A model generated the notes under the pieces. It worked only from the letters and a program-made list of their open reading frames with translations, made no database searches and was not told the origin of the DNA. This document shows positions 2,770 through 34,803 of a DNA stretch of 35,147 bases, piece after piece; the stretch's first letter is position 1; every line of letters begins with the position of its first letter. The position numbers and the translations under genes were made by a program. The DNA comes from Actinomycetes bacterium (GTDB lineage: Bacteria > Actinomycetota > Actinomycetes > Streptosporangiales > Streptosporangiaceae): positions 1 to 35,147 of the forward strand of contig JAJYUU010000043.1 of NCBI GenBank assembly GCA_021792405.1, given 5' to 3'.

Positions 2770-3285
2770 GGTGACGAGCAGCCCCAGCGCGGGGCAGGCT
2801 CCGCCGCGCGGGCAGTGCGTCCGCCGAACTGGCCGGAAAACTGGGCGGCCGCCTGCTGGATGGCCAGCGACCAGGTCGGGTAAGCGTGAACCGACTGGGC
2901 GAGCCGACCGGTGAACATGCCGGCGCGCACGGCCAGTGCGGGCTCGTGAATCATCTCCCCCGCACGGGAGGTGACGAGTGTAGCCCCCAGCACCCGCCCC
3001 CCGACAGGCCCCAGCACCCTGGTACCGGCCAGCGATGATCTGCACGAAGCCGTCGGTGCATCCCGCGGTGACCGCCCGGTCGACCTCGCCCATGGGCAGG
3101 TACGCCGCCTGGCCCCGCCTGAGCGCCGGCCTGGGCTGCGGTGAGCCCGGCCTGCGCGGTAATGGCCATGTGCCGGTCCGTCACGACATGGCCGCGCTCA
3201 TCGAGGCGGACTCCCGCGGCCTCCAGGCCCAAGTGGCCGACAACGGCGGGCTGCCGCCTGGCGGCCCCGGCGCGGTCTTGTTAAC
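2770..3285 (-). pseudogene. Decayed copy of the pyridine nucleotide-disulfide oxidoreductase
   Basis: Fragments in several minus-strand frames match, in order, the C-terminal half of the intact flavoprotein at 12277-13704: LGLEAAGVRLDERG, TDRHMAITA, GLTAAQ, GEVDRAVTAG...GFVQIIAGR, then LGATLVTSRAGEMIHEPAL and YPTWSLAIQQAAAQF. The stretch corresponding to about 60 residues between TDRH and GLT is missing, and at least two frameshifts break the frame. The N-terminal FAD/CX4C half is absent. It lies beside the decayed regulator copy and a DUF427 gene, so a second flavoprotein-regulator-DUF427 group probably existed here. Confidence 0.8.
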
Positions 3286-3539
3286 GCGGATTTCCCACGC
3301 AGCCAGTCGAGCGGGACAGCTTCATGGACAAGAGCGCGTCTGACCTGCAGAGATAGGCTCGGCGACAGCCGGCGCGAAGGCCGATATCGCTGCATCGATG
3401 GAACACCGCAACTGTTATGTAACTGCGGCCGACACGCTGAGCCCATCAGCGGCGACCAGCAAGTGAGGGCAAACAGGCACGTTCGTAGTGGGTCCTGCGC
3501 TAGCGGAGAATCATCGCGGCGGGCCTCCATCGCCCGGTT

Positions 3540-4844: not shown

Positions 4845-5165
4845 ATGGGCATCTGGCTGGACTACCCCTGCTGCTACGGAGCCGCGTACGGGTTCTGGGC
4901 CTGCGACCGCTGGTGCCCGCTGCACGACGGCTCCGACCCGATCGTGTTCGGCGACCTGTACTTGCCGGCCAACCGCCCCGACGGCAGCCTGCCGAAGTCC
5001 CGGCCATGGACCGGTCGGCCTCCCGCGTCTGCCCAGTGCTCACCTTTTGGAACGGGCTCGCCGGATGCCAGCATGAACATTGACGGTCATCTATTCAGTA
5101 ATCCGGTGATCCTGCCATCTAGTAAACCCGTTGGGCCAGCGAGGCGCCGGGGATTGTCTGCCTGA
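4845..5165 (+). CDS. Small Cys/Trp-rich ORF of unknown function
   Basis: The 106-residue frame begins MGIWLDYPCCYGAAYGFW and holds five cysteines within 60 residues (CC, ACDRWC, QC). The frame is open back to the stop at 4731-4733, but ATG 4845 is the only standard start seen. No clear ribosome binding site precedes it. The N-terminal half looks protein-like (aromatic, with a Cys pattern), while the last ~40 residues look like translated non-coding DNA that runs into the operator at 5155. It may be a truncated gene. No function is proposed. Confidence 0.3.
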   Translation: MGIWLDYPCCYGAAYGFWACDRWCPLHDGSDPIVFGDLYLPANRPDGSLPKSRPWTGRPPASAQCSPFGTGSPDASMNIDGHLFSNPVILPSSKPVGPARRRGLSA

Positions 5166-5170
5166 TGACA
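5155..5170. promoter_or_regulatory. Operator-like site TGTCT-GCCTGA-TGACA (site 3) within a longer palindrome
   Basis: One arm differs from the TGTCA consensus by one base, and the flanks extend symmetry to TTGTC-N8-GACAA. A second perfect palindrome, TGCCTGAT-GACA-ATCAGGCA (5159-5178), overlaps it. The site ends 111 bp before the AhpD-like gene, which it probably controls. Confidence 0.6.
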
Positions 5171-5281
5171 ATCAGGCATCTCGTCCGCCTGTCCGCTTGG
5201 TTGCCTGCGGGAGAACGCAGGCCATGCCGTGCCGAGGCAACGACCGCGGCGAACAGGGTTGCGGGCCAGGAGGAGGAAACG

Positions 5282-5845
5282 ATGCCCCGGGTTCCGGTGC
5301 ACGCCATCGATGACGCGCCCGAGCAGTCGCGGGAAGCGCTGCGCGGGCTGGAACGCAGGATGGGCCGACTGCTGAACATTCACGCCGAGATGGCGCACGC
5401 TCCCGTGGTGCTGGCCGCCTACCAGGGCATCCAGCAAGCGATCGCCGTCTACGGCAGCTTCGGCGCCAAGACCCGCGAGGCGATCGCGCTGGCCGTGGCC
5501 GCGGTGGACAACTGCGCCTACTGCCAGTCCGCGCACACCGCGGGCGGGCAGGCCGCCGGCTGGTCGCTGGCGGAGACGGTGGCGATCCGGAACGGCACGG
5601 CCCAGCTTGACCCGAAGCTCGCCTCATTGCTGGCGGTGGCCCGCCAGATCGCCGGGAACACCGGCTACGTCGCGGACGCAGCCTGGCAGGCGGCGCGGGA
5701 GGCAGGCTGGAGCGACGCCGAATTGGCCGAGCTGTTCGCCCACGTGGCGGCGAACCTCTTCACCAACTACTTCAACCACTACGTGCAGACCGAGCCGGAC
5801 CTGCCCGCCGCGCCCGGGCTGGAAGGCTGGTCACCGCGCGACTGA
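5282..5845 (+). CDS. Carboxymuconolactone decarboxylase / AhpD-like protein
   Basis: The 187-residue protein starts at an ATG preceded by AGGAGGAGG. It carries the AhpD peroxidase signature: E66, then CAYC (C78, C81) and H85, with the 12-residue Glu-to-Cys spacing of mycobacterial AhpD. AhpD-type proteins use this Cys pair with Glu and His relays to reduce peroxides or to pass electrons to AhpC-type peroxidases. Family members without a known partner are annotated as carboxymuconolactone decarboxylases, and genuine gamma-carboxymuconolactone decarboxylase activity is unlikely with this motif. No AhpC lies adjacent, although a redoxin is encoded at 9310. The operator at 5155-5170 and the redox neighbours support a peroxide- or thiol-stress role. 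Confidence 0.88.
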   Translation: MPRVPVHAIDDAPEQSREALRGLERRMGRLLNIHAEMAHAPVVLAAYQGIQQAIAVYGSFGAKTREAIALAVAAVDNCAYCQSAHTAGGQAAGWSLAETVAIRNGTAQLDPKLASLLAVARQIAGNTGYVADAAWQAAREAGWSDAELAELFAHVAANLFTNYFNHYVQTEPDLPAAPGLEGWSPRD

Positions 5846-9309: not shown

Positions 9310-9846
9310 TCAGGTCAGCCAGGCCCGAGCCGCCGCGACGACCTCGCCGGCCGGCGGGCGGTCGCTGGGCGTGCGGGGCCGCCAGATCTGGCGCACGACG
9401 CCGTCGGCCATGATCGCGTCGGCGCCGAGCTGGCGGGTGTCTTCGACCGCCCTGGCCAGCCGGTGCCCGTGCGCCAGGGCATCCGCGTAGGTGGCGAGCG
9501 TGCGGGGCGAGTACACCTGCCACAGCGGGGCCCGTCCTATCTTCAGGCGCCGGTAGAGCAGGCGCTGCTCGTCAGCCAGGATCCGGCCGGGCCAGCCGAG
9601 GTGGCGGGCGATGGCCGCCAGCGGCCGCGGCGGGCTGAAGCCGACCAGGATAAGGCCGGGCGGCGCATCACCGGATGTCTGGTGCACCTGAACCAGGTGC
9701 TGCTGGCAGGGCAGTCAATGCCGGTGCCGCAGCAGCACCAGCAGCTGGACGCCGGTGATCTCGCCGAGCATCACCGGCTGCCCGCCGGGTGCCTCAGCGA
9801 GCTCCAGGTCAGCTACGTTGATGCTGACGTCGCGGCTGCGCGGCAT
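9310..9846 (-). CDS. Candidate selenoprotein: redoxin (AhpC/TSA-like) with UxxC motif encoded by in-frame TGA
   Basis: A single frame runs from ATG 9846 (GGAGGGGAG about 7 bases upstream) to 9310, interrupted only by TGA at 9717-9715. Upstream of the TGA it reads MPRSRDVSIN...VQLLVLLRHRH; downstream, LPCQQHLVQVHQ...GLILVGFSPP, then IARHLGWPGRILADEQRLLYRRLKIG. This is the AhpC/TSA-type thioredoxin fold: strand, redox motif, helix, strand, and the ILADEQRLLYR block. The TGA falls exactly on the first residue of CxxC, giving U44-L-P-C47. Fourteen bases after the TGA lies a perfect 7-bp stem with a GUU loop, as required for a bacterial SECIS. With Sec the protein is 178 residues and would act as a peroxide- or thiol-reducing enzyme. 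The alternative is a Cys-to-stop mutation in a pseudogene, which cannot be excluded here because no selenocysteine machinery lies in the window. Confidence 0.65.
9684..9700 (-). promoter_or_regulatory. SECIS-like hairpin after the in-frame TGA
   Basis: On the minus strand GCACCTG-GTT-CAGGTGC forms a perfect 7-bp stem with a three-base loop. The loop begins with G followed by U, as in the SelB-binding loop of the E. coli fdhF element. It begins 14 bases after the TGA, and the loop is 21 bases from it, within the usual bacterial range of roughly 16-37. Confidence 0.55.
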
Positions 9847-10084
9847 TGCTTGCTCCCCTCCCTCGGCAGGCACGCCGTCCATGGCGGCATGCGCGTGACG
9901 GTGCGACCTGGCGCGGGCCGGCGCGGTAGCGGTCGCAGATCTGCTGGGGCCGGCGCGGTAGCGGTCGCAGATCTGCTGGGGAGCGGCACCGTCGAAATAC
10001 AGCAGCTTGAGGCACTGCATGAAGACGACCATCCGCCAGGCGTCGTTGGGCCGCAGGCGCCGCCACTCTCGGCTTGTTGTGCTG
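9847..10084 (-). other. Gap with 32-bp tandem duplication and a possible small ORF remnant
   Basis: A 32-bp unit is repeated twice without mismatch at 9916-9947 and 9948-9979. Because 32 is not a multiple of three, the duplication shifts the frame of a protein-like minus-strand reading (WRRLRPNDAWRMVVFMQCLK, then LLYFDGAAPQQICDRYRAG) that begins just after the mycothione reductase stop. I do not recognise that peptide. The redoxin ribosome binding site lies at the low-coordinate end. Confidence 0.35.
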
Positions 10085-11446
10085 TCACAGTTCGAGCAGC
10101 GTCTGCTCGACGGCCTCGGTGAGCGCCGGGTGGATGTATAGGACGCCTGAGGCGACCTGGTCGACGGTGCTACCCAGGCACATGGCCTGAATCAGCGGCT
10201 GTATGAGCGTCGACGCTTGCGGTCCGATGATGTGCGCGCCGAGCAGCAGCCGGGTCGCCGGGTCGGCGAGGACTTTCACGAAGCTGGAAGTATCCTCCAG
10301 CGCCCAGCCGTAGGCCGCCTCACTGTAGGAACGCGTCGCGGCGACGAAGTCACGGCCCTGCTCCCGCAGTTCCTGCTCCGTGGCGCCCACCGTGGCGACC
10401 TGCGGATCGGCGAACACCGCCGACGGGACCACCGTGAACCGGGCGCGCCGTGGCCGGCCAGGGTGGAGCAGGTTCTGACGGACCAGCCCGGCCTCGGCGT
10501 TGGCCATGTGCTTGAGCTGGAAGTGGTTAGCTATGTCGCCGAGCGCCCAGATTCCCGGCACATTCGTCTGGTACGTCTCGTCGGTGCGGACGTGCCCGTG
10601 CGCGTCGGTCTCGATCCCGGCCGCGGCCACGTTGAGCCGGTCGCTGTTCGGAATCCGGCCGGTCGCCACGAGCAGCACCTCGGCTTCGGCGGCCTGCGCG
10701 CTGGACGGGCCTGCCAGATCGACGCGGATCCCTCGTCGCGTCTTCGCGACGTCCTTGACCTCCGCGCCCAGGCGTACATCGAACCGCTGCTGGTACAGCT
10801 CGGTGAACCGCGACCGTATGGCGGCGTCGTGGCCGGACAGCAGCTGGTCGCCGCGCGCGACGATCGTGACCCGCGTGCCGAGCGCGCCGAAGATATGGCT
10901 CATCTCCGCGGCGATGTACCCGCCGCCTAGCACGATCATCGACTTCGGCAGCCGGTCCAGCCGCATGACCGTGTCCGACGTCAGGTAGGGGACGTCTTCC
11001 AGCCCGCTGACCTCCGGGATCCGCGGGCGCGAGCCAGCTGCCAGCACGAACCGCTCGGCGTGGATCTCCTCATCCCCAGCGATCAATACCTTCGGCGCGG
11101 CGAACCGGGCCTCGCCGAGGAACACATCGACGCCGTGCGCCCGCCGGTAATCAACCGCCTGCTCGTGCAGCGGGTCGATTCGGTCGAACACCCGGTCCCG
11201 GATGGCCGGCCAGTCCGCGCCACGCCAGCAGGCGCTGATCCCGAACCGGGCTGCGTGCCGCACGGTCTCGGCGACGTCGGCGGTGTGCACCAGCATCTTC
11301 GACGGGATGCACCCCCGGTTCAGGCAGGTGCCGCCGAACCGGTCCGCTTCCACGACCGCGACCCGCCAGTCAGCGAACTCCTCCGTCGGCAGCATGTTCC
11401 CGCTGCCGGCGCCGACGATCACGAGGTCATAGCTGTGTCTGGCCAC
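10085..11446 (-). CDS. mtr: Mycothione reductase-like flavoprotein
   Basis: This is a 453-residue class I pyridine nucleotide-disulfide oxidoreductase. It starts at GTG 11446, preceded by AGGAGGTTGG; upstream in-frame codons exist but look non-coding. An N-terminal FAD site (VGAGSGNMLP) is followed by the redox pair C41/C46 in GGTCLNRGCIPSKM, the second Rossmann motif (VLGGGYIAAEMSHIFGALG), the ALGDI FAD motif and a C-terminal HPALTE dyad (His and Glu of the active site). The GNMLP...EFAD stretch after the first glycine loop is characteristic of mycothione reductase rather than lipoamide dehydrogenase. Mycothione reductase regenerates mycothiol from its disulfide with NADPH. The operator at 11504-11519 lies 57 bp upstream and is shared with the divergent HAD gene. 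Confidence 0.85.
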   Translation of the reverse strand: MARHSYDLVIVGAGSGNMLPTEEFADWRVAVVEADRFGGTCLNRGCIPSKMLVHTADVAETVRHAARFGISACWRGADWPAIRDRVFDRIDPLHEQAVDYRRAHGVDVFLGEARFAAPKVLIAGDEEIHAERFVLAAGSRPRIPEVSGLEDVPYLTSDTVMRLDRLPKSMIVLGGGYIAAEMSHIFGALGTRVTIVARGDQLLSGHDAAIRSRFTELYQQRFDVRLGAEVKDVAKTRRGIRVDLAGPSSAQAAEAEVLLVATGRIPNSDRLNVAAAGIETDAHGHVRTDETYQTNVPGIWALGDIANHFQLKHMANAEAGLVRQNLLHPGRPRRARFTVVPSAVFADPQVATVGATEQELREQGRDFVAATRSYSEAAYGWALEDTSSFVKVLADPATRLLLGAHIIGPQASTLIQPLIQAMCLGSTVDQVASGVLYIHPALTEAVEQTLLEL

Positions 11447-11503
11447 GCCCCAACCTCCTTCCCGGTCATCGTCGGGCATGGCGGCGGCTTGCTGCACTGT
11501 TCC

Positions 11504-11519
11504 TGTCACCTGGCTGACA
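11504..11519. promoter_or_regulatory. Inverted repeat TGTCA-CCTGGC-TGACA (site 6)
   Basis: Identical to site 2 across all 16 bases. It lies 57 bp before the mycothione reductase start (minus) and 45 bp before the HAD gene start (plus), midway between divergent genes. Confidence 0.8.
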
Positions 11520-11564
11520 GTCCTGGTCCTGCTGACCGCCGGTCCGCCGGTAGCGTGCGGTGTC

Positions 11565-12239
11565 ATGGCCAACCGCCCTGTCGCCGTCGCGTTCGATGTA
11601 ATCGAGACCCTCATGCCGCTGGAGCCGCTCCGCGAGCGGTTCACCCACCACGGACTGGCGCCTCATCTGCTGGAGTTGTGGTTCACGCGTACGCTGCGGG
11701 ACGGGTTCGCGCTGGCCGCTGCCGGGGACTACGCGCCATTCAGTGACGTCGCCACGCAGGCACTGCAAGTTGTGTCGGGCTATCAGGCCGACAAGTCCGC
11801 AACCGCGGCCATCCTGGCCGGGCTGACCGAACTGCCCGCCCATCCCGACGTCCAGCCCGCCGTCCGTATGCTGGCCGGAGCCGGAACTCGGCTCGCGTGC
11901 CTCACAAACGGCAGCGCAGCTGTCACCTCCGCGTTCCTGGAACGGGCCGGTCTGAGCGACTACATCGAGCGGGTCATCTCGGTCGAAGAGGCCGGGATCT
12001 GGAAGCCGCCGGCACAGGTATATCAGCACGCCGCAGAAGTGCTAGGCGTAGAGTCGGCCGACCTCGCTCTGGTCGCTGCCCACGCGTGGGACTGCCATGG
12101 CGCCAAGCGGGCCGGGCTTGTCACAGGCTGGGTCAGCCGTCTGGAACGCCAGTACTCCCCGATCTTCGCCGCGCCCGACGTGACCGGCGCTGACCTCGCC
12201 GAGGTTGCGCTCCGGCTCGTGGAGTTGCCAGTCAGGTAA
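11565..12239 (+). CDS. HAD-superfamily hydrolase, haloacid dehalogenase type II-like
   Basis: The 224-residue protein starts at ATG 11565, which places the first motif at the expected distance from the N-terminus; no strong ribosome binding site is seen. HAD motifs appear in order: FDVIETLM (nucleophile Asp), CLTNGS (motif II), KPPAQVYQ (motif III Lys) and AAHAWDCHGAKRAG, which matches the HAWD..GA motif of type II haloacid dehalogenases. Those enzymes displace halide from 2-haloacids through an Asp ester, but many relatives are phosphatases. The second acidic residue usual after the nucleophile is replaced (DVIET), as in dehalogenases. It is divergent from mycothione reductase and shares its operator. 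Confidence 0.8.
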   Translation: MANRPVAVAFDVIETLMPLEPLRERFTHHGLAPHLLELWFTRTLRDGFALAAAGDYAPFSDVATQALQVVSGYQADKSATAAILAGLTELPAHPDVQPAVRMLAGAGTRLACLTNGSAAVTSAFLERAGLSDYIERVISVEEAGIWKPPAQVYQHAAEVLGVESADLALVAAHAWDCHGAKRAGLVTGWVSRLERQYSPIFAAPDVTGADLAEVALRLVELPVR

Positions 12240-12276: not shown

Positions 12277-13704
12277 TCAGCGGGCGTTTCGCACGGGTTC
12301 CGGCTGCTCGCTCTTCCCGGTCGCCTCAGCGTCCGGCTCGGCCGGGCGGGCGGTGTGCCCGCCGAACTCGCCGAAGAACTGGGCGGCGGCCTGCTGGATG
12401 GCCAGCGACCAGGTCGGGTAGGCGTGCACCACCTGGGCGAGCCGCCCGGTGAACAGGCCAGCGCGGATGGCGAGCGCAGGCTCGTGGATCATCTCCCCGG
12501 CACGCGCGGCGACGATCGTCGCTCCGAGCACCTTCCCGCCGCCGGCAGTCCCCAGCACCGGGCGGCGGCCGGCGACTATCTTGACGAACCCCTCGGCGCG
12601 GCCTGCCGTGACAGCCCGGTCCACCTCCCCGATCGGCAGGAACGCCACCCGCGCGCCTCGGTGAGCCCGGGCGGCCTGCCCCTCGGTAAGCCCGACCTGC
12701 GCCACCTCGGGGTCGGTGAACACCACCCACGGGATGGGAACGGGGTCGAACCGGGCTCGGGCGGCCCGGCGGCGCAGCGCATTACGGGCAGCGATCCGGC
12801 CCATCGCGAACGCGGCGTGCGTGAACGGCATCCGCCCGGTGACGTCCCCTGCCGCGTAAACGCCGCGGGCGGTGGTGGCCAGGTGCCGGTCGGTGCGGAT
12901 GTAGCCGCGCTCATCCAGCCCGACCCCGGCAGCCTCATGGCCCAGGTCCCCGGTGACCGGCCGGCGCCCGGCAGCCACCAGCAGCCGGTCGGCGGTCAGT
13001 TCCCCACCCGACGCCAGCGTCACTACCACCGCCTGATCATGCGGCCGGACGCCGGCGACCGCCGTCCCGGCGTGCACGCCGATCCCCTCGGCACGCAGCA
13101 CCCCGCTGATGACCTGCGATGCGGCCGGGTCAGCGGCCGGCAGCAGCCGGGCGGCGGCCTCGATGATCGTCACCTGGCTGCCGAGGCGGGCGAACGCCTG
13201 CGCCAGCTCGCAGCCCACCGCCCCGCCGCCCAGCACCGCCAGCCGGGCCGGCACGCTCTCCAGCCCCCAGATGGTCTCGCTGGTCAGGTACGCCACCTGC
13301 GCCAGCCCGGGCACCGGCGGGACAGCAGGCTGCGATCCGGTGGCGACGACGAACCGGCGCGCGCGCACCACCTGCCCGGCCACGCTGAGCGTGAGCGGCG
13401 CCGTGAACTCCGCACGGCCCCGCAGGACCGTCACGCCCTCCCTTGCGAGAACCTCAGCGGTCTCGGCAGCGGCGATCACCCGGACAGACCGTCGCACCGC
13501 CGCCATCGCCTCGCCGAAGCCGTCGCCACGCGCGGCCGCCCCGATCAGCGTCTTCGACGGCACGCACCCAGTGAACGTGCACTCCCCCCCGATCTCCCCC
13601 GCCGCCACCAGCAGCACGCTCGCGCCCGCCGCCGCAGCCGCCCGGACAGCGCCAAGCCCGGCCGCGCCGCCCCCGACCACGATCAGATCCCACCTGGCAT
13701 TCAC
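12277..13704 (-). CDS. NAD(P)/FAD-dependent disulfide oxidoreductase (mercuric reductase/lipoamide dehydrogenase-like)
   Basis: The 475-residue flavoprotein starts at GTG 13704, three bases after the stop of the upstream DUF427 gene, so the two are an operon. The FAD motif GGGAAGLGA, redox pair C42/C47 in GGECTFTGCVPSK, NAD(P) motif LGGGAVGCELAQAFARLG and YAAGDVTG are all present. The C-terminal active-site stretch reads HAYPTWSLAIQQAA: the usual catalytic His before Pro is Tyr and the Glu is Leu, so disulfide chemistry at a lipoamide- or glutathione-like substrate is doubtful. The tail ends Glu/Pro-rich without a terminal Cys pair, so mercuric ion reduction is also unproven. A decayed copy lies at 2770-3285 and keeps YPTWSL, so the substitution is a lineage trait and not decay. 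The substrate is unknown. Confidence 0.85.
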   Translation of the reverse strand: MNARWDLIVVGGGAAGLGAVRAAAAAGASVLLVAAGEIGGECTFTGCVPSKTLIGAAARGDGFGEAMAAVRRSVRVIAAAETAEVLAREGVTVLRGRAEFTAPLTLSVAGQVVRARRFVVATGSQPAVPPVPGLAQVAYLTSETIWGLESVPARLAVLGGGAVGCELAQAFARLGSQVTIIEAAARLLPAADPAASQVISGVLRAEGIGVHAGTAVAGVRPHDQAVVVTLASGGELTADRLLVAAGRRPVTGDLGHEAAGVGLDERGYIRTDRHLATTARGVYAAGDVTGRMPFTHAAFAMGRIAARNALRRRAARARFDPVPIPWVVFTDPEVAQVGLTEGQAARAHRGARVAFLPIGEVDRAVTAGRAEGFVKIVAGRRPVLGTAGGGKVLGATIVAARAGEMIHEPALAIRAGLFTGRLAQVVHAYPTWSLAIQQAAAQFFGEFGGHTARPAEPDAEATGKSEQPEPVRNAR

Positions 13705-14484: not shown

Positions 14485-15848
14485 CCGTTTCCGCGAGTAG
14501 GCCGGTGACACGCCCGCGCTAATGCTGATAGGTGCCGCTCTTAGCTGGGATGATGATCATTGCGACATGAAAGATCATCTCAGCTGAGAGGACACCTATC
14601 AGGTGATGAGGATACGCGGCGGGAAGCAGAATCGCCATCGTCCTCGGGTCGGCGCGCCGGACCCGACTTTGACGGCGAATGCCGGGCTGGCCGCGGTGAG
14701 CGAGTTGTGCGGGCGGCTGGACGTGATCGAGGTGATCGACGCGGCGGCCGGGCCGGTCAAGCAGCGCGACCGCGGCTTCGGCGCCGGGCAGCTGCTGACC
14801 GGGATCGCGGCGGCGCAGCTGGCCGGGGAGGACTTCCTTACCGGGCTGGACCGCCAGCGCGCTGATGCGGCCGGGCAGCTGCTGACGCCGGTGCCGGGAC
14901 TGGCGCCGGTGCCGGGACTGGCGCCGGCGACGGCGGCGGCGGCGGGCCTGGCCCGCCGGATCACTCCGGCGCAGTGGCTGCAGGTGGAGACGGGCCTGGC
15001 CGTGGTCACCGGGCGGATGGTCGGGCTGCTGAGCCCGGAGCGGGCGGCGGCGCTGACCGATGGACCGGTGACCATCGACCTGGATGCCACCGACGTGGAG
15101 GTGTATGGCAGCAAGAACCGCGGGGTGGCGTGGAACCTGGTCCGCCGGGTGCGCCTGGACCCGGGCCAGGTGTCAGCGGACCCGCGGTCACGGCGGCGGC
15201 GGACCCTGCACCCCGCCCGGCGGGCGCTGCCGTTCCCCGAACTCGCCGAGGCTGAGGCCATCTACGCCTGCTCCTTCATCCTGACCAGCCTGGACGTGTC
15301 CGATCCGGGCAAGGCCGCAGCGGTGGAGCACTGGTACCGGCACCGGGCCACGGTGGAGAACGTGTTCCGCGACGGCAAGCACGGCGCCGCCCTCCGCCAC
15401 CTCCCCTCCGGTTATCACCAGGTGAACATGGCGTGGATGTGGGGGGCGCTGCTGGCGGCCAGCATGGCCGGCTGGCTGCACCAGCTCACCTCCCTCACCC
15501 GCGGCAGGGACATCCTGGCCGGTCACGGCACCCGCAGCGGCAACGCCATGATCGAAACCCTGCGGTGGCGGCTGATCGCCGTTCCCGGCCGGCTGATCCG
15601 CCACGCCGGGCAGCTCATCCTCCGGCTCCCGCCCGGCCAGCACCTGCTCGCCGAGATACTCGCCAGGCTGCGCGCCCTGCCCGCGGCGTCCTGACCGCCC
15701 CGGCCCGCGGCCCCGACCCGGAAACCTGGAACCCGCGACCCCGGCGCGACACCCGGGCCAGCAGCATGGCCGCGCGCCGGAAAAGCCACGATCAAGATCA
15801 TCATGACGCCCGAAGATCAACCCTGGGCGCTACTCGCGGAATCGGGTC
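14485..15848 (+). mobile_element. Defective IS1380-family insertion sequence
   Basis: GACCCGTTTCCGCGAGTAG (14482-14500) and the reverse complement of 15830-15848 match with one mismatch, giving terminal inverted repeats. Removing 14485-15852 rejoins the alcohol dehydrogenase frame as SGHCD-QTLRSLLTLSD, and TGAC occurs on both sides (14481-14484 and 15849-15852), consistent with a 4-bp target duplication; the exact edges remain ambiguous by a few bases. A further inverted repeat (TGATAGGTG 14526-14534, CACCTATCA 14593-14601) sits just before the transposase start and may hide its ribosome binding site. Confidence 0.75.
14603..15694 (+). pseudogene. IS1380-family transposase with internal deletion
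   Basis: The 363-codon frame keeps the N-terminal part and first catalytic segment (TIDLDATDVEVYGSKNRGVAWN) and the C-terminal part (SFILTSLDVS, VEHWYRHRATVENVFRDGKHG, QVNMAWMWGALLAAS), both typical of IS1380 transposases. Between GVAWN and LVRRVRLDPG, near nt 15138, the stretch that normally carries the second catalytic Asp is missing in frame; complete proteins are roughly 100 residues longer. The frame stays open, but the DDE triad is incomplete, so it should be inactive by itself and mobile only with help from a full copy. A repeated PVPGLA motif near residue 95 comes from a small tandem repeat. Confidence 0.8.
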
Positions 15849-25483: not shown

Positions 25484-25768
25484 CTAATTAGGCAATCGAC
25501 ACCATTCATCGTCTCGGTCTTGACCGTCCTCTTCACGTGGCGCTCCTTGCCGTGACCGGACCGACATCCGCGTACATCCAGGCGCCAGGCTCGGCGATGA
25601 CGGCGGCGGCACGAACGGCGTCTTTCATCACCACCCAGGACGGCGACAACGGCTCCCTGTCCTCCACCAGATCGAGACGCCTGCCAGGCGCATCCGCGGA
25701 ATCAGGCACAAGAGTATGCGGATGCGTGGGCATTGACACTGGTAGCACAAGGTTTACGCTCAGCGAGC
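25484..25768. promoter_or_regulatory. Intergenic region with leaderless promoter of the kinase gene
   Basis: TTGACA (25733-25738) and TACGCT (25755-25760) are spaced by 16 bp, and the -10 ends eight bases before GTG 25769. The rest of the interval holds no recognisable gene. Reading an upstream TTG (25733) as the start would put the -35 box inside the coding region, so it is rejected. Confidence 0.5.
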
Positions 25769-27058
25769 GTGGACGCTGTCATCCCGTCGGGGTCACTTTT
25801 CGCCGACCGGTACCGCATCGATGAGGTTCTGGGCACCGGCGCGCAGAAGACGACCTACCTGGCTTGGGACACCAAGGCCGGGCGCCCGGTCGCGCTGGCT
25901 ATCCTTTCCGCGGACGCCGAGCCGGCGATCGGGCAGCACGAGGCAGCCTTGCTGGCCGGGGTCGGCCCGCACGACAACATCGTCACCTTGTACGACTTCG
26001 GCGTCGAAGCCGACCGCCATTTCCTGGCGCTCGAATACCTGCCCGGCGGCGAGCTGCGCGATCACTGCCACAACGACCAGCATGGCGCCGGCCAGGTGCC
26101 AATGCCGGAGTTCTTCCGCTGGGCCCGCCAGTTGTGCCGGTCGATCAGCCAGATTCACCAGTACCGGATCATCCACCGCGACATCTCGGCGACCAACATC
26201 TGGCTGGATGCCCGCGGCGTCACTCACCTCGGCGACTTCGACACCGCGGTCTTCCTGGACGATCCTCAGCCCGCACCGCACGACTTTTCGACCACCGAGT
26301 CCTACCCGGCTCCCGAGCTGCTGGCCGGGGCGGTCGGCGACGTCCGGACCGACATCTACTCCCTGGGCGCGGTGTTCCATGAACTCCTGACCGGCACCGT
26401 CCCGCCCGCGCCGACAGGACCCGGCGTGGCCATTCCGCCTCCGTCTCAGTCACGCGACGATGTTCCGGCCAGCCTCGATGACCTGATCTTGTCCATGCTC
26501 GCCGAGGACCCCGCCGCCCGCCCGGCGAGCGCAGACGCGGTGCTCGCGGCGTTGCGCAAGATCGAGCCGACAGCAGATCTCGAAACGCTGATCGCCAACG
26601 GCGAGAACGCCACGGTGGAGTTCAAGCAGACCATGCGATGGGACATCGAGGCGTCGAAGACGAGCGCAGAGGTCCTCAAGATGGCCGTCAAAGCCGTCTG
26701 CTCCTTCCTCAACGGCGACGGCGGAACGCTGCTGATCGGGGTCTCCGACACCGGCGAGCTGACCGGGCTCGCTGACGACATCGGCGCCCTCACCAAGCCC
26801 TCCCTCGACGGTTTCGAGCTGGCCTTCAGGCAGGGCCTGGCTAACGGGCTGGATCCCGATGCCGGTCATCTGGTCACACTGTCCTTCCCGACCGTGCGCG
26901 GCGTGCAGATCTGCCGGGTAGAAGTCAAGCCAGCGCCGACGCCGGTGTTCCTGGTCGGCAAGAGCGTGCCACCCGAGTTCCGCGTCCGGAAAGGCAACGC
27001 CTCGCCGGCCCTGGACGTAAAAGATGCCTACGAATACATCCGCGAACACTGGGGCTGA
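25769..27058 (+). CDS. Ser/Thr protein kinase fused to an AlbA_2 (Schlafen-type) domain, WNK-like lysine
   Basis: The protein has 429 residues. The kinase spans about 15-265: glycine loop LGTGAQKTTY (21-30), HRDISATN (136-143), DFD in place of DFG (156-158), APE (181-183) and DIYSLG (195-200). The usual beta-3 lysine position reads VALAIL, with Ala44, while K27 in the loop occupies the place of the WNK-kinase lysine (GSFKTVY), so activity through K27 is plausible. Residues about 277-429 form an AlbA_2-type domain: ENATVEFKQT, AVCSFLNGDGGTLLIGVSDTGELTGL and PPEFRVRKGNASPAL. That domain binds nucleic acid in Schlafen-like and bacterial regulators. The GTG start is set by the promoter and is probably leaderless. 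A kinase that senses nucleic acid through its C-terminus and signals to its neighbours is an inference. Confidence 0.85.
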   Translation: MDAVIPSGSLFADRYRIDEVLGTGAQKTTYLAWDTKAGRPVALAILSADAEPAIGQHEAALLAGVGPHDNIVTLYDFGVEADRHFLALEYLPGGELRDHCHNDQHGAGQVPMPEFFRWARQLCRSISQIHQYRIIHRDISATNIWLDARGVTHLGDFDTAVFLDDPQPAPHDFSTTESYPAPELLAGAVGDVRTDIYSLGAVFHELLTGTVPPAPTGPGVAIPPPSQSRDDVPASLDDLILSMLAEDPAARPASADAVLAALRKIEPTADLETLIANGENATVEFKQTMRWDIEASKTSAEVLKMAVKAVCSFLNGDGGTLLIGVSDTGELTGLADDIGALTKPSLDGFELAFRQGLANGLDPDAGHLVTLSFPTVRGVQICRVEVKPAPTPVFLVGKSVPPEFRVRKGNASPALDVKDAYEYIREHWG

Positions 27059-32730: not shown

Positions 32731-34803
32731 CCGAAGTTGCGGTAGCTCTCCGTAGATCATTCGCGTCCTGACCTGGGCGGACAGTGTTCTCAGGCCATTC
32801 TAGTGTAGCCATAAAAATCTTGTAATTCAATGGCTCTGGGCGGCGTTTCCCGATATCATCCGGGTATGGCAGCCCAGCCGCCCGCGATGCACGTGGCCAG
32901 GATCCGCAGCTCCTACACCGGCAAGGACGGGGAGCGCCGCGACTATGAGTCGGCCTACCTGCGGCGCACCTACCGCAAGGACGGGAAGGTCAGGCACGAG
33001 ACGCTGGCGAACCTGTCCGGCCTGGCCGATGGCGTGGTGAACGCGATCGAGGCCGCGCTGAAGGGCACGCCGCTGGTCCCGGCCGGCGCGGCGGTGTCCA
33101 TCAGCTCGTCGGTGCCGCACGGGCACGTCGCCGCGGTGCACGCGATGGCGGTGCAGCTGGGCCTGCCTCAGCTGCTGGGCCCGGCCGGCCGCCAGCGGGA
33201 CCTGGCGCTGGCGATGATCGAGTCCCGGGTCGTGCGGCCGTCCTCCAAGCTGGCCGGCCTGGCCTGGTGGTCTGATGTCACCCTCGGCACGGACCTGGGC
33301 GTCGCCGGGGCGTCCACGGACGAGGCCTACGCGGCGATGGACTGGCTGGCCGGCCGCCAGGACGCCATCGAGAAGCAGCTCGCCGGCCGGCACCTGGGCC
33401 CGCAGGCCAATCCTTCGCGGATGGCGCTGTTTGACCTGTCCAGCTCGTGGATGGAGGGCACGCACTGCCCGCTGGCAGCGCGGGGCTACTCCCGTGACGG
33501 GAAGAAAGGCAGGCTGCAGATCGAGTACGGGCTGCTCACCGACCCGGCCGGCCGGCCGGTGGCAGTGCGGGTGTTCCCCGGCAACACCGGCGACCCTACC
33601 GCGTTCGCGGCCCTCGCCAGGGTGGTGCGGGAGAGGTTCGGGCTGGAGCGCATGGTCATGGTCGGCGACCGCGGCATGATCACCACGGCCCGGATCACCG
33701 CCCTGAACAAGCCAGACAGCGACAGTGACAGCAGTGACGCCGCTGCCGGCAAGAGCATGGCCGGCAAGGGCAGGCGCAAACCCGGCGCCGAGGCCGGGGC
33801 CGCGCTGCCCGGCGGGCAGTACGGGTGGATCACCGCGCTGCGCGCCCCGGCCATCAAGAAGCTGATCGCCGAGGACGGCCCGCTGCAGATGAGCCTGTTC
33901 GATCAGCAGAACCTGGCCGAGATCACCAGCCAGGACTTCCCCGGCGAGCGGCTGATCGCCTGCCGCAACCCGGTCCTGGCCGCCGAGCGGGCCCGCAAGC
34001 GCCAGGACCTCCTGGCCGCCACCGAGAAGGCCCTCGCCCCCATCATCACCCGCGTGACCGCCGGGCGGCTGTCCGGCAAGGACACCATCGGCATCGAGAC
34101 CGGCAAGGTAATCGGCAAGTACAACGTCGCCAAGCACTTCGACGTCACGATCACCGACGACAGCCTCACCGCCGCCCGCCGCCAGGACCAGATCGACGAG
34201 GAAGCCGCCCTGGACGGGTTCTACGTCATCCGCACCAGCGAGCCCGCAGCCGGCCTGGACTCAGCCGCCGTAGTGGCCGCCTACAAGAACCTCAAATACG
34301 TCGAGCGGGACTTCCGCCACATCAAGGCCGACGACCTGGACCTGCGCCCGGTCTTCCACCGACTCGAGGACCGCGTCAGGGCGCACGTGCTGATCTGCAT
34401 GCTGGCCTGCTACCTCACCTGGCACCTGCGCCGGGCCTGGGCGCCGCTGACCTACACCGACCCCCAGCCACCCCGCCGGGAAGACCCCGTCGCCCCCGCC
34501 CGCCGCTCAGCAGAAGCCGCGGCCAAGGCCGCATCCAGGCACGACCCGGACGGCCAGCCCGTCCGCAGCTTCCGCGGCCTGCTCGCTCACCTGGGCACCC
34601 TGACCCGCAACCAGGTCACCTTCGCCGGCACCACCCAGGCCGTCGCCATGCTCGCAGACCCCACCCCCGCCCAGCGCCGCGCATTCGAGCTCATCGAAGC
34701 CCCGATACCCCTCGTCCTGAAGTAGCCAGAACACAAACCCGCAGACCGAGCAAAAAAGCCAGGTCAGAGCCACATTCAGCTACCCCACGAGCCGTAACTT
34801 CGG
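32731..34803 (+). mobile_element. Intact IS1634-family insertion sequence
   Basis: Terminal repeats CCGAAGTTGCGG (32731-32742) and CCGTAACTTCGG (34792-34803, inverted) match with one difference. The flanks are GCTAAG on both sides (32725-32730 and 34804-34809), a perfect 6-bp target duplication of a size typical for this family. The 2.07-kb length and a single transposase gene agree. The fresh duplication indicates recent transposition. Confidence 0.88.
32866..34725 (+). CDS. IS1634-family transposase
   Basis: The 619-residue DDE transposase contains VARIRSSYTGKDGERRDYESAYLRRTYRKDGKV at the N-terminus, FDLSSSWMEGTHCPLAARGYSRDGKKGRLQIEYGLL (first catalytic Asp region), MVGDRGMITTARI (second Asp) and AYKNLKYVERDFRHIK (third acidic region, YxxLxxVE). 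ATG 32866 is chosen over ATG 32830 because the family begins close to HVARIRS; no ribosome binding site precedes either, and GATATCAT just before 32866 might be a -10 element. An insert rich in Asp/Ser and Gly/Lys (about 285-315) separates the second and third acidic regions. It appears intact and able to act. Confidence 0.92.
   Translation: MAAQPPAMHVARIRSSYTGKDGERRDYESAYLRRTYRKDGKVRHETLANLSGLADGVVNAIEAALKGTPLVPAGAAVSISSSVPHGHVAAVHAMAVQLGLPQLLGPAGRQRDLALAMIESRVVRPSSKLAGLAWWSDVTLGTDLGVAGASTDEAYAAMDWLAGRQDAIEKQLAGRHLGPQANPSRMALFDLSSSWMEGTHCPLAARGYSRDGKKGRLQIEYGLLTDPAGRPVAVRVFPGNTGDPTAFAALARVVRERFGLERMVMVGDRGMITTARITALNKPDSDSDSSDAAAGKSMAGKGRRKPGAEAGAALPGGQYGWITALRAPAIKKLIAEDGPLQMSLFDQQNLAEITSQDFPGERLIACRNPVLAAERARKRQDLLAATEKALAPIITRVTAGRLSGKDTIGIETGKVIGKYNVAKHFDVTITDDSLTAARRQDQIDEEAALDGFYVIRTSEPAAGLDSAAVVAAYKNLKYVERDFRHIKADDLDLRPVFHRLEDRVRAHVLICMLACYLTWHLRRAWAPLTYTDPQPPRREDPVAPARRSAEAAAKAASRHDPDGQPVRSFRGLLAHLGTLTRNQVTFAGTTQAVAMLADPTPAQRRAFELIEAPIPLVLK

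Follow-up and report, generated by a model that had tools for sequence, protein, structure and literature searches.

SelL carries the motif UxxU, and typical peroxiredoxins carry the peroxidatic motif TxxC. Within the openly available text of the literature, SelL is described as having two selenocysteine (Sec) residues close together (PMC3316567), Sec peroxiredoxins are given the motif TxxU (PMC9312934), and the GOS work treats SelL as a Prx-like selenoprotein and reports UxxU in a Prx-like 2 family (PMC2398784). Two reviews (PMC9312934, PMC13188914) describe, in their available portions, Prx-like thiol:disulfide oxidoreductase selenoproteins (UxxC/UxxU) and peroxiredoxin-like cd02970 selenoproteins (UxxS), and the accessible part of a 2006 survey gives 12 selenoprotein families in Actinobacteria (PMC1794560). 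As the available text of these reviews, the GOS work and the survey lists such Sec redoxins and selenoproteins, a Sec redoxin of the kind analysed here is already known. Neither NF040769 nor the name SelL occurs in the main text of PMC13188914, and none of the terms sought occurs in the main text of the deep-Sep paper (PMC12013277). In the available portions of the open-licence literature we found no description of the clade to which our gene belongs, of its SECIS registers or of its neighbours.

The window (the whole 35,147-nucleotide stretch of DNA that was analysed) is contig C15 of a 5.39 Mb assembly in 314 contigs, 98.4% complete and 0.6% contaminated. On its minus strand a frame starts with ATG at 9846, runs for 43 codons to a TGA at 9717–9715, continues for a further 134 codons and closes with a terminal TGA at 9312–9310. 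The original prediction had this frame (9846–9310) interrupted solely by the TGA at 9717–9715, and its coordinates and residues proved exact. Codon 44 lies in the context ...LLRHRH-U-LPCQQHLVQV. We conclude that 9846–9310 very probably encodes a working selenoprotein in which TGA 44 is read as Sec; the insertion itself is what we infer from conservation of the TGA, purifying selection past it, covariation of a hairpin across the family, Sec machinery in the genome and the predicted fold. If the TGA is treated as a stop, gene finders end or discard the redoxin gene. The features of the gene are:

9310–9846, minus strand: probable selenoprotein redoxin gene, 178 residues with Sec44, predicted thioredoxin fold and UxxC active site; the terminal stop is also TGA
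9853–9864, minus strand: purine-rich stretch ahead of ATG 9846, resembling a ribosome-binding site in sequence; putative role
9715–9717, minus strand: TGA codon 44, probably read as Sec; same column is TGA in 4/4 close and 26 inspected distant genes, Cys in 6 aligned Cys relatives
9706–9708, minus strand: Cys47 codon, second UxxC residue, invariant in the family alignment
9684–9700, minus strand: SECIS-like hairpin, 7-bp stem and GUU loop, starting 14 bases past the TGA

The best family match is NF040769 (SelL-related redox protein), which covers nearly the whole length (E 2.8e-24). Its scores, 85.7 bits for the window protein and 83.2 and 88.2 for two close relatives, are all below the curated cut-off of 120. 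The protein is related to SelL, a diselenide redoxin, through this NCBI family name, but the window has one Sec and one Cys, and its clade shows UxxC in place of the strict UxxU. It also departs from the TxxC/TxxU motif of typical peroxiredoxins, with H41, R42 and H43 preceding Sec44. The reviewed Prx-like and cd02970 selenoproteins are likewise redoxin-type with Sec at the first motif position, but in the available text they are listed under PF00578 or with UxxS. Against PF13911 (AhpC-TSA_2, gathering score 27) the window protein scores 26.4 bits, that of a relative in the same taxonomic family (genome G062) 27.3 and that of Segeticoccus rhizosphaerae 25.8.

An AlphaFold2 model (36 sequences; pLDDT 94.7, pTM 0.90) predicts a thioredoxin-type fold, with a strand at 33–38 and residue 44 immediately preceding the helix 45–58. 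The model thus places a CxxC-like active site at a helix start, as expected of a PRXL2/PF13911 protein. The best structural match is human prostamide/prostaglandin F (PGF) synthase (9usa; Z 16.9, r.m.s.d. 2.7 over 155 residues; Foldseek TM 0.71/0.77), known as PRXL2B. Bcp4 (Z 16.3) is tied with it by the rule of the search tool, with several peroxiredoxins next at 15.9; the structural rank is thus not decisive in itself. A profile built from 36 relatives placed the wild-type chain of PGF synthase first (1.3e-18), its CxxC falling on the U/C column; PGF synthase, a PRXL2/AhpC-TSA_2 protein, has Cys where our protein would have Sec. Weak matches were all that phmmer returned for the single protein against the PDB, and tblastn against plasmids gave no match. 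By its model and profiles, the protein is a predicted thioredoxin-fold redoxin, closest to human prostamide/PGF synthase and to the SelL-related family NF040769.

Close relatives were sought in 9 genomes of the genus, in 150 of the family and by a pattern-based scan of 84,980 species genomes, which detects close relatives only. Within the genus the gene occurs in one of the nine genomes, the window's own. Matches in the family came from three of 150 genomes; besides the window's own, these are G062, at 73% identity, and G036, at 76% over the available part of a gene divided between two contigs at the TGA. The wide scan added Segeticoccus rhizosphaerae (61% identity; locus L019, NZ_VOHR01000014.1, match 3001–3516). 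These four genes come from four genera, have TGA at the identical codon in 4/4 and show no further internal stop in their available parts, and conserved coding sequence lies on both sides of the TGA. Past it, pN/pS (Nei–Gojobori) is 0.36–0.50 in all six pairs, which shows that selection acts on the part of the protein encoded there. Before it, the ratio is 0.67–0.76 in the three pairs with 42–43 codons; for the three pairs involving G036, just 8 codons are available in that part. When the four genes are aligned, the TGA lies within the longest invariant run (39–54).

These comparisons bear on two readings in which the TGA is a true stop. In one, the gene is a pseudogene whose Cys codon mutated to TGA and whose remainder is decaying, a fate suggested by the neighbouring fragments at 9940–10083 (glycosyltransferase) and 2796–3120 (reductase) and by transposase-like ORFs in the window. 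Against decay stand the TGA shared by four genera with no other internal stop, a pN/pS past the TGA no higher than before it, and TGA-bearing relatives across the phylum whose hairpin covaries; with dS past the TGA at 0.58–1.04 between the four close genes, it is not tenable that all of them descend from one gene inactivated long ago. We reject this reading on the shared TGA and the downstream selection, and consider it extremely improbable. The original prediction would have fallen had close relatives with this TGA carried other disabling mutations; instead, all three are open past it and under purifying selection.

In the other reading, the TGA is a regulated stop that releases a 43-residue peptide, the downstream ORF being started separately at GTG 9687, from which a 125-residue ORF is indeed listed. 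Such a stop would fall inside the fold, between strand 33–38 and helix 45–58, and within the longest invariant run, and the downstream piece alone would be without the active site and a central strand. On the position of the TGA within fold and invariant run we reject stop and restart too, and give it as little credence as decay.

The selenoprotein reading extends to distant relatives. When the four-gene profile was searched against genomes of the class and of the phylum, 18 of 394 and 41 of 396, respectively, gave a match, with the window's own counted in both. Exactly one TGA is present in 33 of the 44 non-self matches of the phylum sample. We inspected 26 distant TGA genes (25 of those 33 and one class match), and in 26/26 the TGA lies on the first residue of UxxC. 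Six aligned Cys relatives (L046, L048, L082, L084, L087 and L090) have Cys in the U column. Homologues thus have either Cys or TGA in the same column, with Cys homologues at the Sec position as in a selenoprotein family, and the earlier placement of the TGA on the first redox-active Cys holds. Most other weak class matches are AhpC/TSA-like proteins with CxxC and were excluded from alignment and tree; the 36-row alignment leaves out 12 further Cys or CxxC class matches along with L049 and L060. In the tree, a long branch leads to the four close genes, which group with full support (100/100); support for the deepest forks is weak (49/22), and the Cys label requires three changes.

Bacterial SECIS elements are selectively constrained hairpins that closely follow the UGA and carry a G in their apical loop. 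The window hairpin, GCACCUG-GUU-CAGGUGC, folds alone to −9.8 kcal/mol; its loop starts 21 bases past the UGA and G is the first loop base. All details foreseen for it (a perfect 7-bp stem, GUU, 14-base spacing, the loop G and the 21 bases) are correct. Taken by itself, it does not exceed synonymous-codon shuffles of its own gene in stability (42 nt past the TGA; z −0.59, p 0.31), because HLVQV written in preferred GC-rich codons is almost palindromic, and the 45 nt from the TGA onward are not more stable than dinucleotide shuffles (z −0.31). We therefore rejected the folding energy of the window's lone hairpin as evidence. The original prediction went too far in arguing that the hairpin would not be expected from a Cys-to-stop mutation: codon bias alone nearly yields it. 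The four close genes have one and the same stem, so that the window's clade shows no covariation.

The hairpin exceeds chance in the family comparison only, not from the window alone, and it is at this level that it has the properties of a SECIS element. Folded against their own codon shuffles, 30 Sec genes have a mean z of −0.73 (t-test p 5e-6) and 18 Cys genes a mean of +0.06 (Sec versus Cys, Mann–Whitney p 0.002), these p-values being too small because the genes are related; L049 and L060, class matches without CxxC, were left out. Single genes rarely stand out (z < −1 in 9/30 Sec and 4/18 Cys genes). In 18 HLV-type genes, positions +15 to +20 pair with +26 to +31 in 99.1% of cells, against 32–51% in slid controls. 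This stem has 8 double-change cells (shuffled mean 2.6) and a covariation score of 0.224 (0.076 in shuffles), each reached by 0/500 shuffles. Compensating changes take GC to CG at the outer pair in 6 genes and CG to UA at another pair in 2 genes, the latter together with a change of Val to Met. Two other covariation measures of the HLV-type stem are ordinary (pairs with changes, 110/500 shuffles; pair types, 345/500), and RNAalifold recovers the same stem unaided. TGA homologues thus do keep the stem through compensating changes in these 18 sequences, a point that the original prediction had put forward as a check.

A second register is seen in 11 'QL' genes, whose hairpin lies about 4 bases further on (+19 to +36) and covaries weakly (33/500 shuffles as good). 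Codon choice in the hairpin is locked: one group has CTC in 14/14 and GTG in 14/14, and the 'QL' genes have TTG in 11/11, though TTG accounts for only 25 of all 164 Leu codons in these genes, those of the hairpin counted. At +25 to +30 past the UGA of the 'QL' genes, Gln CAG and Leu TTG are invariant (11/11 each), an unusually strong codon constraint. One gene, L063, belongs to neither hairpin group. What emerges from the comparison is a set of probable Sec redoxins widespread across the phylum rather than one gene. The set shows two registers of the hairpin and constraint on its codons, and some members have FAD reductases as neighbours.

The window's genome has the means to insert Sec. Contig C277, assigned to one genome with C15 by binning, carries a tRNA-Sec with anticodon UCA (73.9 bits, gathering score 47; ARAGORN agrees), SelA (437 bits, cut-off 267.9), SelB directly after SelA (286.5 bits, cut-off 242.25) and SelD (370 bits, cut-off 125). 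All four components of a selenoprotein-making genome are thus present, each over its curated cut-off, and the absence of Sec genes, which would have told against the original prediction, is not what we found. G062 has tRNA-Sec, SelA and SelD. G036 (84% complete) has tRNA-Sec and SelD; SelA was not found in the search there, and the best SelB match is an EF-Tu-like ORF. At the locus of one distant Sec redoxin (G828:C274, L077), the redoxin gene (216–707), selD (900–1844, 288 bits) and the start of selB (1855–2205, first 117 residues available) directly follow one another on one strand. RF01852 matches at four loci (L006, L007, L038 and L040) were discarded, being tRNA-Ser and not tRNA-Sec by ARAGORN.

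These genes also weigh on a reading in which the UGA is read through without Sec, by near-cognate suppression or TGA reassignment, to give Cys or Trp. It would suit Segeticoccus, whose TGA gene is intact although searches of the assembly revealed no Sec machinery, but sits poorly with the machinery in the window's genome and in G062 (tRNA-Sec, SelA, SelD), with the redoxin that adjoins selD-selB in G828, and with a TGA that falls exactly on the redox-active residue and alternates with Cys among relatives. Such readthrough is further opposed by the TGA that serves as the normal terminal stop of the redoxin gene. On Sec machinery, the G828 linkage, the position of the TGA and its use as the gene's own stop, we reject generic readthrough; it is very improbable, if a shade less so than the two true-stop readings. 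Decoding as Sec is the reading we retain.

Segeticoccus rhizosphaerae presents an oddity of its own: its TGA redoxin is intact and under the same selection, in an assembly in which tRNA-Sec, SelA, SelB and SelD were not found. The best matches there are at 19 bits for SelA and 20 bits for SelD, with EF-Tu as the best SelB match and tRNA-Ser as the best tRNA-Sec match. Missing sequence, recent loss of the machinery, recent arrival of the gene or a misassigned contig are possible explanations.

Occurrence of SelA does not distinguish TGA from Cys carriers. Among 26 distant TGA genomes it is over cut-off in 21, in pieces in three (G770, G672 and G699) and not found in two (G580 and G761); among 19 Cys genomes it is over cut-off in 12 (21/26 versus 12/19, Fisher p 0.31), and we rejected it as a discriminator. 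The comparison drew on 57 genomes searched, leaving out the four close genomes and eight with an uninspected match (G561, G683 and G825, and one TGA each in G595, G654, G679, G682 and G703); 6/8 of the latter have SelA over cut-off. SelA is also over cut-off in 4/5 other genus members listed and in 92/150 genomes of the family sample, where the redoxin is in 3/150. Given how common SelA is among the Cys genomes and in the family, it proves little by itself.

In the mechanism that we propose, SelA would charge tRNA-Sec(UCA) with selenium from SelD, and SelB, directed by the hairpin that begins 14 bases after the UGA, would bring the charged tRNA to codon 44. The redoxin so made would have 178 residues and a thioredoxin fold, with its active site, Sec44-x-x-Cys47, where a helix begins. 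Sec44 would most likely attack an oxidized substrate, which may be a peroxide or a disulfide; an arsenic or selenium species is a less certain candidate. Cys47 would then resolve the selenenylsulfide. The redoxin may be restored by mycothiol or by one of the neighbouring FAD disulfide reductases, which resemble mycothione reductase and MerA. The genes around the redoxin on which this proposal draws are:

10085–11644, minus strand: mycothione reductase-like FAD disulfide oxidoreductase, the next intact gene upstream; candidate electron donor
12277–13704, minus strand: MerA-like FAD disulfide oxidoreductase, below the cut-offs of the models matched
9940–10083, minus strand: 48-residue C-terminal remnant of a glycosyltransferase of the TIGR04283 type, with 54% identity to the complete gene in the G036 cluster
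5165–5845, plus strand: AhpD/carboxymuconolactone decarboxylase-like protein, with an 84–91% copy (by stretch compared) after the G036 redoxin

The reductase at 10085–11644 scores 593 bits on one model (cut-off 501) and 540 on another (cut-off 636), and it has a copy of 81% identity close to the G036 redoxin. Copies of the reductase at 12277–13704 stand next to the G062 redoxin (70% identity) and to 3/26 distant redoxins (L064, L068 and L070; 44–45%), in two of these three adjacent on the same strand; a Cys locus, L062, has a weaker match (35% over 160 residues). The recurrence, a matter of counts, suggests that FAD disulfide reductases beside the redoxin would serve as its electron donor. That the redoxin is the redox partner of such a reductase seems to us an evenly balanced proposition. 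The set of redoxins offers a testable enzyme–reductase pair, along with sequences for studying SECIS recognition in the phylum.

Other neighbours touch on arsenic. In G036 and Segeticoccus the redoxin follows an MFS transporter and a fused metallophosphoesterase–radical SAM protein (58% identical between the two; the closest model, that of the Rv1681 radical SAM family, is matched below its cut-off). The G036 cluster adds a fused TIGR04282–TIGR04283 ('arsenosugar biosynthesis') glycosyltransferase over both cut-offs, the C-terminus of which the remnant at 9940–10083 in the window resembles. Beside the Segeticoccus redoxin are ArsI/CadI and ACR3 genes over cut-off, an ArsR-type regulator and, downstream, an arsenate-reductase-like gene below cut-off. 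From these contexts we derive a tentative and rather unlikely reading, that the window clade (RHRH-U-LPCQQHLVQV) is a Sec redoxin specialized for a pathway that handles metalloids or selenium. A mycothione-reductase-like partner would then supply the electrons with which the redoxin reduces an intermediate containing arsenic or selenium.

The window and G062 loci share a neighbourhood, as judged by the 70% identical reductase, a permease (46%) and a stretch at 35–493. This last stretch (plus strand) is 82% identical over 154 residues to a gene upstream of the G062 redoxin (L021:382–1107), which weakly resembles archaetidylinositol phosphate synthase, below cut-off. A partial second copy of the 12277–13704 reductase lies at 2796–3120 (minus strand), in fragments that match its C-terminal part at 84% and 66% identity. 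Between the glycosyltransferase remnant and the redoxin, and overlapping the end of the remnant, lies a perfect 32-base tandem duplication (9915–9981, 2.1 copies). Elsewhere in the window, DDE transposase-like ORFs are found at 14603–15694 and 32830–34725 (both plus strand), and at 25733–27058 (plus strand) a protein kinase domain is fused to a Schlafen/AlbA_2 domain.
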